Notes under the pieces: generated by a model
The model's database searches: none
What the model was told of the DNA's origin: nothing
The model's input: only the letters and a program-made list of their open reading frames with translations
Made by a program: the position numbers and the translations under genes
Assembly (NCBI GenBank): GCA_014800815.1
Contig: JAAVFI010000079.1
Coordinates: 1 to 64,000, forward strand
Reading direction: 5' to 3'
From: Bacteroidales bacterium
GTDB taxonomy: Bacteria > Bacteroidota > Bacteroidia > Bacteroidales > Muribaculaceae
DNA length: 64,000 nt
Shown here: piece by piece, positions 74 through 6,224 of the stretch
Layout of the letters: the number at the start of each line of letters is the position of its first letter
Numbering within the stretch: position 1 is the stretch's first letter

Positions 74-113
74 AAAGCACCCCAAAAGTTTTGTGTCCAA
101 CTTTTGGGGTGCA
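1..113 (-). mobile_element. End of an IS3-type insertion sequence (partial)
   Basis: The left window edge holds the terminal ~113 bases of an insertion sequence that runs off the window. Its outer end carries a 14-base perfect inverted repeat (77-90 against 99-112, 8-base loop) that finishes in GGGGTGCA. Just inside it a transposase OrfA starts on the minus strand. Right after base ~113 a phage terminase reading frame resumes mid-gene, so the element most likely inserted into that gene. The family assignment rests on the OrfA N-terminus only. Confidence 0.6.
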
Positions 114-873
114 GTTCACCCCCGACGAGGCATTTTCAAACACCGCCCTGGCCGTGTTTGATCCCGCCGACCTCAGCCGCCTGCGCCCAGGTGCCGACGC
201 AGCCTCCGCCCGTCGCTACGAACTCGACCCACGCACCGGCCTCCCCGTCGCCACCCCCTCCGGGCGCCTCGAAATCTGGGCTCACCCCTGCCCCGCCGAC
301 CAACTGCGAACCAAGCCGGCCTACGTCATAGCCGTCGACGTTGGCGGCTGCTGGGAGGGCGCCGACTGGAGCGTCATCGCCGTTTTCGACGTTCGCACCC
401 CGGGGCAGCTCGAAGTCGTTGCCCAATGGCGCGGCCACGTCCACATTGACCGCCTCTGCTCGCTGGCCTGCGCGCTGGGCCGCTACTACCATCGCGCCCT
501 GCTCATCTTCGAAAGCAACACCCTCGAAACCCGCGGCACCCACGCCCTGGAAAAGCTCGGCCGCTCCGGCTACCCCAACCTCTACCGCCGCCAGGCGTTC
601 GACACCGTTACCAACACCATGTCGACCCGCATCGGCTTCCACACCAACGCCGCCACCAAGGCCGCCGCCATCTTCGAACTAACCTATGCCCTGCGCGACG
701 GCCGCCTGATCGAACGCTCAGCCGCCGCCATCGACGAAATGGCAACCTACATTCGCCGCGGCGAAAAAACCGAAGCCGCCCACGGCTGCCACGACGACAT
801 GCTCATGACCCGCGCCATCGCCGCCTACGCCCTGGCCCAATCCCCGCCCCGCCCCCTGAAATCCCTCTTCTAA
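114..873 (+). pseudogene. Phage terminase large subunit, C-terminal nuclease part, truncated by IS
   Basis: About 250 codons of the C-terminal nuclease domain of a phage large terminase remain. The acidic positions of the RNase-H-like fold are visible: VIAVDVGG, LIFESN and, near the end, GCHDDMLMTRAIA. The ATPase half is missing, because the frame begins directly at the right end of the IS at ~113. The TTG-initiated frame from 91 runs through the IS end and is an artefact of the fusion. No portal, capsid or tail genes follow. It is a stranded prophage remnant with very GC-rich codons (GCC, CGC, GAC) compared with the islet at 3.6-6.2 kb. The protein is unlikely to be functional. Confidence 0.7.
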
Positions 874-874
874 T

Positions 875-905
875 TTTGCGGATTAGAAAAAAAGCGCTAC
901 CTTTG
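875..905 (+). promoter_or_regulatory. Bacteroidetes-type promoter ahead of the decayed ATPase gene
   Basis: TTTG at 875-878, a 19-base spacer and TACCTTTG at 898-905 match the Bacteroidetes sigma-ABfr consensus (TTTG, 19-21, TAnnTTTG). The last base of the -7 element is the first base of the 905-946 inverted repeat, so the start site would fall inside the palindrome. Confidence 0.6.
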
Positions 906-946
906 TACTGCAACTTTACATGCACATGCAACCAAAGTTGCAGTAC
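905..946. repeat. 13-bp inverted repeat at a promoter, probable operator or hairpin
   Basis: GTACTGCAACTTT (905-917) and its exact reverse complement (934-946) are separated by 16 bases. The left arm abuts the -7 promoter element. It lies between the terminase remnant and the ATPase pseudogene. It could be an operator for the ATPase gene, a 5' hairpin, or the scar of a small mobile element. The sequence cannot tell these apart. Confidence 0.6.
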
Positions 947-968
947 AGCCATATTTTTCCCTTCACCT

Positions 969-1773
969 ATGATCATAGAACGATAAGACCGAAGCGTTGG
1001 AAGAGTACATGATGTATGGAGGAATGCCGACCGCCGCCATAGAACCCGACGAAAGGGAAAAACGTAAGTACCTGCAGGGATTATTCTCAAATGTGTATAT
1101 CAAGGACATTGTTGAACGCTATAAACTAAGAGGAGACAGCCTGCTGGATATTTTGGTTGACATACTGTCATCCTCGGTTGGCTCACTGACAAATCCCAAT
1201 AAACTCGCCAACACCGCCGGCTCACGGATGGGAAACAAGCCATCGAACAACACCATTAAGAACTACCTCGAATATTTAGAAGACGCATATCTTTTTCAGA
1301 GCGCAAAACGGTGGAACGTTAAAGGTCGTAAATATTTCGACACCATACAGAAATACTACGCAACAGACCTCGGGCTACGGAATGCGCGGTTAAACTTTCG
1401 CCAGCAGGAAAGATCGCATCTGATGGAAAACATGATTTACAACGAACTGATCCGCAGAGGATATTCAGTTGATGTAGGCGTTGTTGAAGTTCATCAGAGC
1501 ATCAATGGAGTCCGAAAAATGTCGCAATATGAAATAGACTTTGTGGTAAACATCGGGAACAACAAAATCTACATCCAGTCCGCCCTAAATATCGACACTC
1601 CCGAGAAAAAAGAACAAGAAACATTCTCACTGAGACACACCGGCGACTTCTTCCGCAAAATCGTAGTTCTCGGCGGAAGTCAGAAACCCTGGACAGACAA
1701 TGACGGCGTAATGTATATCGGCGTCATTCCATTCCTCTTGGCCGACATCATCTCCGAGCCCATCATTCCTTAA
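969..1773 (+). pseudogene. AAA/DUF4143 family ATPase, internal deletion and frameshift
   Basis: A start at 969 encodes MIIER, the usual first residues of this ATPase family, and then hits TAA at 984. From about 982 a different frame carries the family's C-terminal part: DKTEALEEYMMYGGMP, the DUF4143 core, and a C-terminus ending in FLLADIISEPIIP at 1773. Everything expected between, including the Walker A and Walker B regions (roughly 180 residues in full-length members), is absent. So an internal deletion joined codon ~5 to the DUF4143 part out of frame. The 258-residue open frame from TTG 997 is this remainder. Intact members are common accessory ATPases of uncertain function in Bacteroidales. 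This copy cannot bind ATP. Confidence 0.7.
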
Positions 1774-1810: not shown

Positions 1811-3367
1811 TCAGCGGATTTGCGCGCGCAGGGCGGCGCGCATCCGCTCGGCGGCAGGGGAGTTGGTTTTCAGGATGTTGAGGACTGCCGTCAGATAACC
1901 GCGCTTATCGCCGGTGCCGGTCAGCGGGCCGACGTTGCTCTGCCCGACCATCGACTTCTGATTATAAACCCTCAGAACCGACGCATAATCTCCCGCATGG
2001 ACATAGCCGCTGAACTCGCGGCATTTACTCTCATAAATTGCCCGCGGATTAATCTCGTCGACCAGGTCGGCCATGTGTTCTTCCAGCTTGCTTATCGACG
2101 CAAAGCGGCCGTCGATGCGATGCTCCATGATGTGCTTGACCTGGTGGCGCGTGTGCTGCAACGCCTGCTGGCGCATCTCGCCGCGAAACATTGCAATAAC
2201 CGCCTCCTTAACCTTCTGAAACACCCGCTGCGGGTCGCGGCGATGAACCTCGGCAACAGCCTTGACAACCCCCTCCACCATCAGCAGATTCTCAATCTCC
2301 GCCACCTCGGGCACCATAATCTTCTTGCGCCGCAAATAGGCCACCTCCTGCTCCGAACGCCGGTCGCGGTCAACGATACCCATGCTATCCAGATGATGAA
2401 AACCCTCGAGCGAATTAAAAACGCGCGTTGACTCAATCACCCGGTCACACGACCCCAGCGCCGTTACCGTATGTTCCGGAAAAATCAGCGGATACAACTT
2501 CGAATCAATCGAATGAGTATTATCACCCTCAATGAACAACACAGGCCGGCGCGCGCCCAAAATCGCCATATACATATCCTCGCGCAGCGGCGAATCCGGC
2601 GGCAAAACAACATAGTCAAACACCTGGGCCTCAGCGTCGCACCCGCGAACCCAAATCGTCGTTGCCCCGCTGCGCGTAGCCGCGAAATCCAGGTCATGCG
2701 TCGTGTAGACAAACGTGCAGTCCGGCCTCAGCGACTCAACCCGGTCCCAGACCCGGCGCAACGTCGACGGATGCAAAAACAGCTCCGGGCTCTCAATCGG
2801 AATCACCGCCCCGGGCGGAGCATACAAAACCCCGCCGAAATAATAAAGCACCAGCTTCTCGCCCGCCGACAACTTAACCTGCGGGCGGCCAACATCATCG
2901 CCGGCGCTCATAAACATCAGCGCCCCATCGGCGCGCAAAACCTCATTGTCAGGAAAAATCTCGCGCCACAGAGCCAACACCCTGTCAATACGCGTTACCG
3001 GCAAATCCCCTCGCCGCCCCTCAACCTTAAAAGCCAGCAAAGACTGCATCTCGTCGGCCAGCATCAACGCCATCAGCCTCTCGGCCTCAGTCGCCGGAGC
3101 GCCCGACACCACCGACGCAAACGGCATCCGCGCCTGCGCTCGCCCATAAAGCCAATCAATCGACCCCTCGGGCGCATCGGCCACGAAAGCGCCATAAAGC
3201 GCACGCAACGGCGACAACCTGAACACCGGCGCAGCCGCCGACTCAGCCAGCCTCGACGTGAAACGCGACTTACCCGCGCCATTAGCGCCGATAACCAAAA
3301 CCTGATGAGCCTGCTCCGGCAAAACCTCCGAAGCGCCGTCAACTTTCCTGGGCAAAATAATCTTCAT
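1811..3367 (-). CDS. ABC-type AAA ATPase fused to DUF4435 (TOPRIM-like), defence-like
   Basis: This is a 518-residue cytoplasmic protein starting at the ATG at 3367. The longer frame to 3427 runs through the promoter, so I reject its start. Residues 27-34 are a Walker A (GANGAGKS), followed by an ABC-like signature LSAGEK, a Walker B IPIESPELFLHP and an H-loop YTTHD. The C-terminal half has the DUF4435 pattern: VLFIEGDN, then GIVDRDRR, the acidic positions of a TOPRIM-like fold. In PARIS anti-phage systems an AAA15 ATPase (AriA) and a DUF4435 nuclease (AriB) work together and are sometimes fused. This protein has the same two parts but is shorter than the AriA plus AriB sum. It sits among phage and IS debris beside a tRNA. 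A defence role is inference. A housekeeping OLD-like nuclease is the alternative. Confidence 0.7.
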   Translation of the reverse strand: MKIILPRKVDGASEVLPEQAHQVLVIGANGAGKSRFTSRLAESAAAPVFRLSPLRALYGAFVADAPEGSIDWLYGRAQARMPFASVVSGAPATEAERLMALMLADEMQSLLAFKVEGRRGDLPVTRIDRVLALWREIFPDNEVLRADGALMFMSAGDDVGRPQVKLSAGEKLVLYYFGGVLYAPPGAVIPIESPELFLHPSTLRRVWDRVESLRPDCTFVYTTHDLDFAATRSGATTIWVRGCDAEAQVFDYVVLPPDSPLREDMYMAILGARRPVLFIEGDNTHSIDSKLYPLIFPEHTVTALGSCDRVIESTRVFNSLEGFHHLDSMGIVDRDRRSEQEVAYLRRKKIMVPEVAEIENLLMVEGVVKAVAEVHRRDPQRVFQKVKEAVIAMFRGEMRQQALQHTRHQVKHIMEHRIDGRFASISKLEEHMADLVDEINPRAIYESKCREFSGYVHAGDYASVLRVYNQKSMVGQSNVGPLTGTGDKRGYLTAVLNILKTNSPAAERMRAALRAQIR

Positions 3368-3513: not shown

Positions 3514-3586
3514 GACTCCGTAGCTCAGTTGGTAGAGCAACTGACTCTTAATCAGTGGGTCGAGGGTTCGAGCCCCTCCGGGGTCA
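3514..3586 (+). tRNA. tRNA-Lys (anticodon CTT)
   Basis: The 73-base gene folds as a full cloverleaf. The acceptor arm is GACTCCG (3514-3520) with CGGGGTC (3579-3585) and discriminator A3586. The D-arm contains AGCTCAGTTGGTAGAGC, and the anticodon stem 3540-3544/3552-3556 encloses loop CTCTTAA with CTT at 3547-3549. The T-arm contains GGTTCGAGCCC. CCA is not encoded. Its 3' end and terminator are repeated at 6153-6224, which marks it as the integration target of the neighbouring islet. Confidence 0.96.
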
Positions 3587-3643
3587 CTCAGGCCGGAAAT
3601 CTTTCGATTTCCGGCTTTTTGTTTTGGGCGGGGAGAACCTTGG
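3572..3643 (+). repeat. attL-like direct repeat (tRNA 3' end plus terminator)
   Basis: These 72 bases cover the tRNA-Lys 3' end, its terminator and the following GAGAACCTTGG. They recur at equal length at 6153-6224 with few differences: one base after the tRNA, the terminator loop TTTC against GAAA, and two bases downstream. Repeats of a tRNA 3' end around a foreign-looking segment are the usual footprint of site-specific integration. Confidence 0.7.
3592..3620 (+). terminator. Intrinsic terminator of tRNA-Lys
   Basis: GCCGGAAATC (3592-3601), loop TTTC and GATTTCCGGC (3606-3615) form a perfect 10-bp stem followed by five T. Confidence 0.9.
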
Positions 3644-3675
3644 TGAGACGTACCATGCTTCGCTATTGCTTCTTC

Positions 3676-3698
3676 TATACCACCTTAGTGGTGGTATA
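3676..3698. promoter_or_regulatory. Palindromic operator candidate upstream of fic
   Basis: TATACCACC (3676-3684) and GGTGGTATA (3690-3698) are exact inverted arms around 5 bases. The half site GGTGGTATA recurs at 3751-3759 next to the -33 element of the Fic promoter, and looser copies (GTAGTATA) lie at 3710-3717 and 3771-3778. Repeated half sites around the promoter suggest a regulator, plausibly the winged-helix domain of the Fic protein itself. Confidence 0.5.
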
Positions 3699-3759
3699 AT
3701 CGTTTATTGGTAGTATATTTTCCTAAAAGATCTATTTGTATCACTTTTTTGGTGGTATA

Positions 3760-3791
3760 TTTGCATATAAGTAGTATATTTTGTATCTTTG
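3760..3791 (+). promoter_or_regulatory. Promoter of the fic operon
   Basis: TTTG (3760-3763), a 20-base spacer and TATCTTTG (3784-3791) are an exact Bacteroidetes promoter. The ATG at 3808 follows 16 bases after the -7 element. Confidence 0.75.
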
Positions 3792-3807
3792 CAACAAATT
3801 ATCGGAT

Positions 3808-4869
3808 ATGACGCAACTCAATAATCTTTACACTCAATGGATAGCCGTTCAGCCGCTTTCATCTGATGATGAAAAGCGACTGAAGCGCAAGTTTATGCTT
3901 GACTTCAACTACAATAGTAATCATATTGAGGGTAATACGCTCACATACGGGCAGACTGAGGTTCTGCTTCTTCTCGGTGAAGTCATTGGCTCGGCAAAGA
4001 TGAAAGATCTTGAGGAGATGAAGGCTCATAACATTTGTCTAAATATGGTTGAGCAAGAGGCTCAAACTGATGAGCCTCTGACTGAAACTTTCATCCGTCA
4101 GGTACATAAGGTTATGTTACGTGAAGATTACACGGTGTATCGACAGTTACCTGGAGGAGAAACAACAAGTTATACCGTTCACGCTGGAAGATACAAAACA
4201 CGTCCTAATTCGGTCATTACACCTACGGGTGAACGGTTTGAATATGCCTCACCAGACGAAACTCCAGCCTTGATGACAGATCTGGTTTCTTGGTATAACG
4301 AAGCGGCTGAAGATGGTTCGATGTCTCCCATTCAACTTGCGGCATTGTTTCATTACCGTTATATTCGTATTCACCCTTTTGAAGATGGCAATGGACGTAT
4401 CGCTCGACTGATGGTCAACTTTATTTTACGTCGCCACAAATGGCCGATGATGGTTATCCGTAGTAAAAATAAGAAAGCCTATCTGAATGCATTGGCACTT
4501 GCAGATTCCTCCGTTGGTCAGATTCCAGCAGACGGTGCACATGCATCACTTAAATCCATTACCCCATTTGTGGACTATATGGAGAAGGCATTGTCAGCTG
4601 ATATTTCTGCTATACTTGAATTTCTATCAGGTGACAGAGAAACAATGTGGTGGTATGAAGGTGAAATTATACGCTTCTCTACGACTACCCCCGGACGGAT
4701 TCTTCGTGTCCTTCAATCAGACCCTAATGCATCCCTATCGACCATATCCACAATCCTCGGCATAAGCCGATCCGCAATCCAAAAGCAAGTGGATAACCTT
4801 GCAGAAAAAGGCTACATAGCTCGTCCCGAAGGCAAAAAACGAGGTTGGATAGTTAGAGTCAAACAATGA
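3808..4869 (+). CDS. Fic family protein with inhibitory helix and C-terminal winged helix
   Basis: This 353-residue Fic protein belongs to the family that usually transfers AMP from ATP onto target proteins. The catalytic motif HPFEDGNGR occupies residues 189-197, with His189 as the general base. An N-terminal inhibitory motif S37-N-H-I-E41-G-N43 is present, so activity is expected to be autoinhibited (class II arrangement). The last ~60 residues (LSTISTILGISRSAIQKQV, then GYIARPEGKKRGW) form a winged helix-turn-helix, suggesting DNA binding and autoregulation. I take the ATG at 3808 rather than the in-frame TTG at 3781, because 3781 lies upstream of the -7 element. It is the first gene of the islet, 35 bases ahead of the cyclase-like gene and likely co-transcribed. 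Target and trigger are unknown. Confidence 0.9.
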   Translation: MTQLNNLYTQWIAVQPLSSDDEKRLKRKFMLDFNYNSNHIEGNTLTYGQTEVLLLLGEVIGSAKMKDLEEMKAHNICLNMVEQEAQTDEPLTETFIRQVHKVMLREDYTVYRQLPGGETTSYTVHAGRYKTRPNSVITPTGERFEYASPDETPALMTDLVSWYNEAAEDGSMSPIQLAALFHYRYIRIHPFEDGNGRIARLMVNFILRRHKWPMMVIRSKNKKAYLNALALADSSVGQIPADGAHASLKSITPFVDYMEKALSADISAILEFLSGDRETMWWYEGEIIRFSTTTPGRILRVLQSDPNASLSTISTILGISRSAIQKQVDNLAEKGYIARPEGKKRGWIVRVKQ

Positions 4870-4904
4870 CTTAGTCATAAATAGAAAATATCGCATATGT
4901 TATT

Positions 4905-5789
4905 ATGAATATTAGCACTCCAATAATCGACAGCAGTCGTCTTTTAGAAAGTCATATGGAAAAACCATCTTTTTCTTATAATGATGGGTTAGTTCTTTTT
5001 TTAGATATAATGGGGTTCAAAGATCGTATATTGCGGACTTCCCATGAGGAATTAGATTTACAATTACGAGAATTCAAGAAGCGGCACAACAAACTAAAAC
5101 CATTGATGGATAATGGAAGTATAGAATTACTTCATTTTTCAGATTCGATTATCGTTGTAGCACATAAGGCTGATATTTTTACCTTAAATCGATTAGTGAA
5201 GATCGCAACAATATTATTGCAGATTGGACTTGAAAGTCAATTTGCCATGAAAGGAGCAATAGCAAGAGGTAAAATAACATTCGATCCAATTGATCAATTA
5301 TATTTTGGGCAAGCACTTGTGGATGCTTATCTCATGGAAGAAGAATTAAAGTTCTATGGAGTTGCATTCCACCATTCAGCAGAAAAACTAGTAATAGAAG
5401 CTCTTGAAAGAATGTATTATCCGGGTAGTAAGAAAATACGTATCTATTATCCGATTCATGAATGTTCTATACCTCTTAAAACATGTAAATGTAAGCATTA
5501 TCTTATCGCATGGCATAAGCTAAATACAGCTCTTTCTCAGGACGATATAACTGAAGATTCAAAGAATTGGTTAGCAAATATGAACTTAACTGTCTCAGGA
5601 GGTCCACGTGTATATGTTGATAATACCATTACTATAATCGATGAAATCAATAAGACGCCTAAAATAGAATCTATTGAAAAGCATCGAGTAAAAACAGCAG
5701 AAATCAAACGAAAAAAACATAAAGAAAGACTGGAAAAAAAGATCAAGAAAGATAAAAATAAAGGCAAACACAAGAGTTCTCATAAATAA
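4905..5789 (+). CDS. Nucleotide-cyclase-fold protein of unknown function
   Basis: This 294-residue protein has the landmarks of the class III cyclase fold: LFLDIMGFKD (Asp34), HFSDSIIVV (Asp80), MKGAIARGK (115-123) and YFGQALVDAYLMEE (133-146). In true class III cyclases the first two motifs supply the two metal-binding aspartates, and both are kept here. The usual GD is SD, and residues that select the base are not recognisable. The C-terminal ~40 residues are extremely lysine-rich (ending KGKHKSSHK), a likely nucleic-acid or membrane-surface contact. The gene is AT-rich compared with the chromosome. It follows fic by 35 bases and ends before a non-coding stretch. Start 4905 is used; Met18 is a possible alternative. 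Whether it makes a cyclic nucleotide is unknown. Confidence 0.65.
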   Translation: MNISTPIIDSSRLLESHMEKPSFSYNDGLVLFLDIMGFKDRILRTSHEELDLQLREFKKRHNKLKPLMDNGSIELLHFSDSIIVVAHKADIFTLNRLVKIATILLQIGLESQFAMKGAIARGKITFDPIDQLYFGQALVDAYLMEEELKFYGVAFHHSAEKLVIEALERMYYPGSKKIRIYYPIHECSIPLKTCKCKHYLIAWHKLNTALSQDDITEDSKNWLANMNLTVSGGPRVYVDNTITIIDEINKTPKIESIEKHRVKTAEIKRKKHKERLEKKIKKDKNKGKHKSSHK

Positions 5790-6000
5790 ATTTATTAATT
5801 TTCAGTTGAGTTCTTGTGTCGGTAAGGAAGTGGATTATTGAAAAGCATAAGAGAGGTGTACTAGGAGGGTACATTATAGATTTACTTTCAGTAATTACAT
5901 TGACTGTTAACACTTATAGTTATTACTAACTCGCAACAAATCGAGTGTAAAGACAAAGAAATAATTGTCCTGAAAGTACCCTGACTTTCATATTGAAGGA

Positions 6001-6032
6001 TTTGGTTATCTGACCAAATTTTATTAACTTTG
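6001..6032 (+). promoter_or_regulatory. Consensus promoter without an obvious gene
   Basis: TTTG at 6001-6004, a 20-base spacer and TAACTTTG at 6025-6032 match the Bacteroidetes promoter exactly. The next terminator on this strand is at 6173-6201, so a transcript of about 160 bases is predicted. Confidence 0.5.
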
Positions 6033-6041
6033 CATTACCCA

Positions 6042-6134
6042 ATGGAAACAATGGGGAAGAACATTGGAATTGTGCCGTGTACAATTCGTGAACAACGGAA
6101 TGTGTGGCATTACAATATTCTGAATACCACTTAG
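6042..6134 (+). CDS. Possible 30-residue peptide in the islet
   Basis: An ATG at 6042, ten bases after a consensus -7 element, opens a 30-codon frame that begins METMGKNIGIVPC, contains NVWHYNILNTT and stops with TAG at 6134. It has no recognisable family and no clear ribosome-binding site, and could be a chance frame inside a small RNA. It is reported because promoter, frame and terminator line up in order. Confidence 0.2.
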   Translation: METMGKNIGIVPCTIREQRNVWHYNILNTT

Positions 6135-6152
6135 TTACAACGATATTATCCG

Positions 6153-6224
6153 GCCCCTCCGGGGTCACTAAGGCCGGAAATCGAAAGATTTCCGGCTTTT
6201 TGTTTTGGGTGGAGAGAACCTTGG
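6153..6224 (+). repeat. attR-like direct repeat (partial tRNA-Lys copy plus terminator)
   Basis: This is the second copy of the 72-bp repeat at 3572-3643. It starts with GCCCCTCCGGGGTCACT, the last 15 bases of tRNA-Lys plus two, and continues through the terminator to GAGAACCTTGG. The rest of the tRNA is missing, so it is not a tRNA gene. Confidence 0.7.
6173..6201 (+). terminator. Intrinsic terminator inside the attR-like repeat
   Basis: GCCGGAAATC (6173-6182), loop GAAA and GATTTCCGGC (6187-6196) are followed by five T. The stem is identical to the tRNA-Lys terminator, but the loop is its reverse complement. Confidence 0.85.

Follow-up and report, generated by a model that had tools for sequence, protein, structure and literature searches.

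A Fic gene and a cyclase-fold gene in a probable tRNA-Lys(CTT) cargo slot of a Muribaculaceae genome

The islet downstream of tRNA-Lys(CTT)

We analyzed a 64,000-nt stretch of a Bacteroidales genome of the family Muribaculaceae (GenBank assembly GCA_014800815.1, contig JAAVFI010000079.1, positions 1 to 64,000), called the window below. Our subject is a small islet that begins at the 3' end of the gene of tRNA-Lys(CTT), the putative integration target, located at 3514..3587 on the + strand (ARAGORN; Rfam tRNA model, 72.1 bits). A repeat search found two direct repeats of 72 nt, 90% identical and separated by 2,581 nt. The left repeat, at 3572..3643 (+), is made of the tRNA 3' end, a terminator-like hairpin and some flank. 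The right repeat, at 6153..6224 (+), is attR-like and also consists of the tRNA-Lys 3' end, a terminator-like hairpin and flank. An earlier note on this DNA had described the repeats as the tRNA-Lys 3' end plus a terminator, and both ARAGORN and the repeat search agreed with that description.

The substantial reading frames between the repeats are two, both on the + strand. The first one, at 3811..4869, codes for a 352-aa Fic protein. The second one, at 4905..5789, starts 35 nt downstream of the first, runs in the same direction and codes for a 294-aa cyclase-fold protein, which we call CYC. Further to the right, at 6023..6165 (+), there is a conserved right end (RE) of about 140 nt, which ends at tRNA-Lys 3'-end sequence; it was delineated by a search of the family and an alignment of 22 copies.

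The Fic–CYC pair was found in three carriers (loci are denoted by L and genomes by G). Besides the window, it was present in a genome where the islet copy is split between two contigs, L027 and L004, and in G026, where the islet copy is truncated and lies beside tRNA-Leu. We consider it probable that a recurring tRNA-Lys(CTT) cargo slot is present here in truncated form, carrying a SoFic-like, autoregulated Fic and, independently of it, CYC.

The conserved right end and the genes to its left

Window positions 5790-6165 were searched against 397 genomes of the family. Matches were found in 48 genomes, and in 31 of them (own genome included) the match was at least 90 nt long with identity of 79-100%. 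Most of the longer matches (24 of 31) begin at or after window position 6001. The 22 aligned copies could be laid over each other with few gaps, from a promoter-like TAnnTTTG box, at which most copies start, to the tRNA-end sequence, and no conserved reading frame was seen in this alignment. The RE can fold; no Rfam family covers it and its covariation was not above that of shuffles. It could be a site of recombination, the gene of an RNA, or combine the two roles.

The RE is linked to tRNA-Lys by its right flank. We compared the right flanks of RE copies with 39 tRNA-Lys 3' flanks; 100 stretches drawn at random from these loci served as controls. In-register matches (E 1e-4) were observed for 13 of the 21 RE flanks versus 0 of the 100 controls. 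Two of the 13 matches, those of the window and L004, were to the tRNA of the own genome; for the window the match extended over 64 nt at 89%. In another genome (G676, locus A) about 52 kb with mobile-element-like genes separate an RE from a tRNA-Lys gene on its left. The RE joined to tRNA-Lys flanks supports the view of the earlier note that the islet is cargo at tRNA-Lys.

These observations bear on an explanation without any integration, in which a tandem tRNA-Lys duplication would have left the second repeat behind and ordinary recombination would have brought in the genes. Tandem tRNA-Lys genes are indeed present in the genus (G035, G048) and, as judged by eye, the terminator of the host's own type stands on both repeats in the window as well as in L027/L004. 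However, the RE stands before the right repeat. This element recurs in 31 of the 397 genomes, and in 13 of 21 cases a tRNA-Lys flank adjoins it. We regard this explanation as quite unlikely.

Twenty RE loci were fetched for neighborhood analysis. Nine of the 20 loci (L174, L176, L180, L183, L184, L185, L190, L191 and L193) have a sigma-54-type regulator upstream in the same orientation, and in the islet copy L027 a regulator immediately precedes Fic. On the left of the window islet a sigma-54-type regulator is absent. Fuller copies of the slot consist, in this order, of a sigma-54-type regulator (often broken), one or more co-directional accessory genes, the RE, and the 3' part of tRNA-Lys with its flank, the cargo between the regulator and the RE varying among genomes.

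At one extreme are L174 and L176, where the distance from the regulator to the RE is within about 500 nt with neither Fic nor CYC between, i.e. nearly empty slots. An empty site, which the earlier note had suggested looking for in close relatives, was therefore found in part: these two slots are empty of both genes, but no sister strain turned up with precisely the unoccupied tRNA-Lys site. By eye, L174 and L176 have in common a non-coding filler of ~350 nt with a promoter-like box.

DUF4143 ATPases were present in 12 of the 20 loci. Fic was present in two, in both cases with neighbors that differ from those in the window: in L183 the order is the regulator, Fic and then a gene of 240 aa without a match, while in L178 a Fic fragment is followed by DUF4143. 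In both loci the similarity to the window breaks off at 4854, slightly before the 3' end of Fic is reached, and the neighbor of Fic changes from slot to slot.

Ten proteins from six RE loci, two regulators and eight chosen cargo proteins, were scanned without control proteins. In this chosen, uncontrolled set 6 of the 8 cargo proteins matched PADLOC models at 1e-8 or better (PDC-S01 twice, PDC-M34B twice, HEC-06 and AbiLi), and the Pfam matches among the eight included HEPN_Swt1 and GmrSD_N. Together with the matches of Fic to PDC-S04 and SoFic and with the AriAB (PARIS-type) neighbor, both described below, these matches are consistent with the defense-type setting that had been suspected earlier. 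The RE can serve as a searchable address for cargo slots across genomes of one gut family; in the loci examined, the cargo on its left side often consists of predicted defense genes, and some of this cargo belongs to no known family.

Recurring sites with exchangeable defense cargo are described for P2/P4-like phages and for Pseudomonas core defense hotspots (PMC9122126, PMC10250203). The tRNA-Lys slot is like those described there in both respects, but it differs in its hosts and its ends, since here the ends are a sigma-54-type regulator and a ~140-nt RE at tRNA-Lys. A further step would be to propose a novel type of defense-cargo slot that operates through the RE, as a putatively transcribed and folded element of ~140 nt. 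Together with the tRNA-Lys 3' end and, at the opposite side, the sigma-54-type regulator, the RE would then capture and exchange single accessory genes in an integron-like manner, although it brings no integrase. Its cargo would include Fic, CYC, DUF4143 ATPases, HEPN and restriction genes. We think of this step as rather unlikely. In integron cassettes, co-directional cargo is located beside a conserved non-coding end. The slot resembles them in working only; no attC or IntI is shown here, and Fic has its own promoter.

Several observations weigh against the reading of the islet as a copy of a recurring slot with independent cargo. A number of the regulators are in pieces, and some are cut by a contig end. 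In the other 11 of the 20 RE loci no regulator was seen; in 10 of them a contig end comes within about 4 kb, and in L189 no regulator was found within 7.9 kb. For two L183 proteins among the eight cargo proteins (one is encoded by the gene that follows Fic) neither PADLOC nor Pfam gave a match. Among the RE right flanks, 8 of 21 match none of the 39 tRNA-Lys flanks, and around G676 locus B there was no tRNA-Lys in the 70 kb examined (its flank nevertheless matches a tRNA-Lys flank). Furthermore, the right-hand core and terminator are, by eye, of the host's own type in the window and in L004. A simple attP/attB crossover does not account for terminators of host type at the two ends; the one in the left repeat could stem from stacked insertions or from a tandem duplication of older date. 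Finally, Fic and CYC are adjacent in all three islet copies and both are under purifying selection, therefore a working link between the two may exist.

The Fic protein and its putative operator

The Fic core HxFx(D/E)GNGR is present in the protein as HPFEDGNGR (PF02661, 1.2e-19), and the C-terminal part is a winged helix (Pfam). Class II Fic proteins carry an inhibitory motif, (S/T)xxxE(G/N), N-terminal to the core. In the window protein SNHIEGN is found at this place and aligns with PDB 3cuc, the closest solved relative (phmmer 3.2e-99), which has the same inhibitory and HPFEDGNGR context, intact in Fic. The 3cuc chain has 291 residues, and the aligned part of Fic (residues 3-274) stops before the winged helix. 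The description of a self-inhibited Fic protein with a winged helix of its own, given in the earlier note, was confirmed, by the Pfam search for the core and winged helix and by the 3cuc alignment for the inhibitory motif.

Among PADLOC models, Fic matched the candidate system PDC-S04 (5.9e-36) and SoFic (3.1e-30), i.e. single-gene Fic defense with the same class II layout of inhibitory motif, core and winged helix. On the other hand, Fic missed the cut-off of the NCBIfam SoFic equivalog by far (29.9 versus 550 bits), and for this reason we classified it as SoFic-like rather than SoFic. Its setting also sets it apart from SoFic and PDC-S04: it occupies a tRNA slot and is followed by CYC. By analogy with the family, released Fic would transfer AMP to a target and act as a SoFic-like defense toxin.

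A pattern search upstream of Fic gave two palindromes, each a putative operator for the Fic winged helix: a distal one, TACCACC-N5-GGTGGTA, at 3678..3696 (+), and a variant, proximal one at 3739..3757 (+). Operator half sites overlap a pattern TTTG-N20-TAnnTTTG at 3760..3791 (+), which we take to be a promoter of the Bacteroidota type. The palindrome pattern, derived from the window and allowing two mismatches, occurred three times in the 64-kb window, and two of these occurrences were at the Fic promoter.

We examined the upstream regions of the islet copy L027 and of 13 non-islet Fic homologs in the genus (53-91% identity), 12 of which were readable (L086 was masked). The palindrome and the promoter pattern were both present in L027 and in 7 of the 12 readable homologs (L083, L084, L085, L087, L093, L094 and L098, with L093 and L094 being near-identical genes), and were both absent in the remaining five (L088, L095, L097, L099 and L100). 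The position of the proximal palindrome was -72 in the window, L083, L084 and L027, and -75 in L085. Homologs without CYC also had the operator pattern.

Judging from these patterns, Fic most likely regulates itself, with its winged helix acting at the two palindromes to repress the Fic promoter. A putative operator of the Fic regulator is now defined. CYC would probably ride on the Fic transcript. By eye, other palindromes could be seen at the promoters of three Fic homologs with 53-54% identity (L095, L099 and L100), as if the operator and the winged helix had changed together.

CYC, its relatives and its relation to Fic

CYC consists of a class III cyclase-fold domain (about residues 20-209), a helical region with the motif SGGPRVYVDNT, and a lysine-rich tail. 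The AlphaFold model had a predicted local distance difference test score (pLDDT) of 85.6, and both Foldseek and VIA recognized the cyclase fold. The metal-site aspartates D34 and D80 are invariant in all 23 aligned members. The usual transition-state Asn/Arg motif (VNxAxR) was not found at its expected place, where GQALVDAYLMEE stands (the replacement being DAYLLEE or similar); this place was read by motif, anchored on residue G135 and two true cyclases, as the automatic alignment is poor there. Because of the replaced motif, CYC was classified as a cyclase-fold protein and not as a canonical cyclase. With the Pfam cut-off for PF00211 the window CYC had no match, and 5 of the 23 members had weak ones, the best at 0.0033. 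Of the class III cyclase motifs claimed in the earlier note, the fold and the D34/D80 pair were confirmed, while the Asn/Arg motif and a PF00211 match at the cut-off were not.

Compared with class III cyclases such as soluble guanylate cyclase and Rv1625c, CYC has 17% identity, lacks the catalytic Asn/Arg and has extra C-terminal helices. Since CYC has the fold and both metal-site aspartates but not the Asn/Arg pair, binding of nucleotides or metal, or catalysis with a changed chemistry, is a more likely role for it than ordinary cAMP synthesis. The cyclase fold and the aspartate pair, both shared with PycC, speak for a further possibility, in which CYC would be an active Pycsar-type cyclase with Fic as its effector. 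The aspartates D34 and D80 are 46 apart; in two PycC proteins described in PMC11224242 the metal aspartates are 44 apart. However, CYC matched no PADLOC model up to E 1, no TIR or membrane effector gene was seen nearby among the listed neighbors, and the Asn/Arg motif is replaced, which makes a Pycsar-kind system highly improbable.

In total, 47 CYC loci were examined; after removal of the islet copies L027 and L104 and of three duplicates (L003/L110, L028/L105, L029/L107), 42 distinct loci remained, with L013/L014 and L011/L032 being near-identical gene pairs. In 16 of the 42 loci, all in Bacteroidales and closest in kinship to the islet CYC, a small GIY-YIG-like gene is located directly upstream of CYC (L006-L014, L017-L019, L029 and L031-L033). 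In a tree made without L018, L029 and L033 (broken or partial CYC), the islet CYC, itself on a long branch, grouped with 13 of these 16 loci with branch support of 100/99, and all 11 rows without the GIY-YIG-like gene fell on the opposite side of this branch. No GIY-YIG-like gene was found in the islet. CYC represents an uncharacterized family of cyclase-fold proteins whose active site is altered and beside which a GIY-YIG-like gene regularly stands; this family can be considered separately from Fic. By eye, the GIY-YIG-like and CYC pair sits among capsule-type genes in a few loci. In two distant CYC relatives (L118, L119) a gene of ~360 aa, common to both, follows at 2 nt or overlapping.

The earlier note had proposed that Fic and the cyclase-like protein form a dedicated two-part defense or addiction system, in which CYC would make or sense a nucleotide and release or restrain the Fic toxin. 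The 35-nt spacing, the common direction and the adjacency in all three carriers found for this CYC lineage speak for such a system, and so does the constraint on both genes. For Fic, nonsynonymous (dN) and synonymous (dS) divergence between the window and L027 were 0.014 and 0.147; for CYC codons 87-286, compared with L027/L004, they were 0.022 and 0.150. Since dN is well below dS, both genes are constrained. In E. coli, SoFic has a 47-residue antitoxin gene downstream according to PMC12249575, and a downstream partner for Fic is conceivable for this reason.

Against it, no Fic motif was present in the first flanks of the 42 distinct CYC loci, the shortest flanks being a few hundred bases long and the longest 8 kb. 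Wider flanks of 11 of these loci gave a single Fic gene, in G331, non-adjacent: it is 1.1 kb off on the opposite strand, with a peptidyl-prolyl isomerase-like gene between it and the CYC relative. Conserved adjacency in unrelated sites, which had been named as a sign of a system, was not observed. Among 49 genomes of the genus, a Fic homolog at 1e-40 or better was present in 15 and CYC in only two of those, the window's own genome and G026 (2 of 49). Three Fic homologs with 75-86% identity and visible downstream sequence (L084, L085 and L086) have no CYC downstream, and in the slots of G692 and G756 Fic is followed by other genes. The CYC frame is also interrupted in two of the carriers, in G026 by larger deletions and in L027 and L004 by length differences of one base close to a contig end or a homopolymer, which in these two may be sequencing errors. 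With CYC rare beside Fic, and Fic having other neighbors, the proposal of a two-part system did not hold up and we consider it unlikely; independent cargo in the tRNA-Lys slot is the reading we prefer. In one genome (L088, G016), a Fic gene with 57% identity lies directly after tRNA-Lys, without CYC and without the palindrome.

On its left, tRNA-Lys is adjoined by an AriAB (PARIS-type) fusion gene at 1811-3361 on the - strand (PADLOC model, 7.8e-86). Farther left of the islet, window positions 91-1773 hold a terminase-like frame (PHROG 24361, 1.4e-9) and a DUF4143 gene, the latter with 48% identity to a slot-type DUF4143 ATPase. A SusR-like regulator on the right of the islet has a second copy, 73% identical, at G000:C31:7697-9289.

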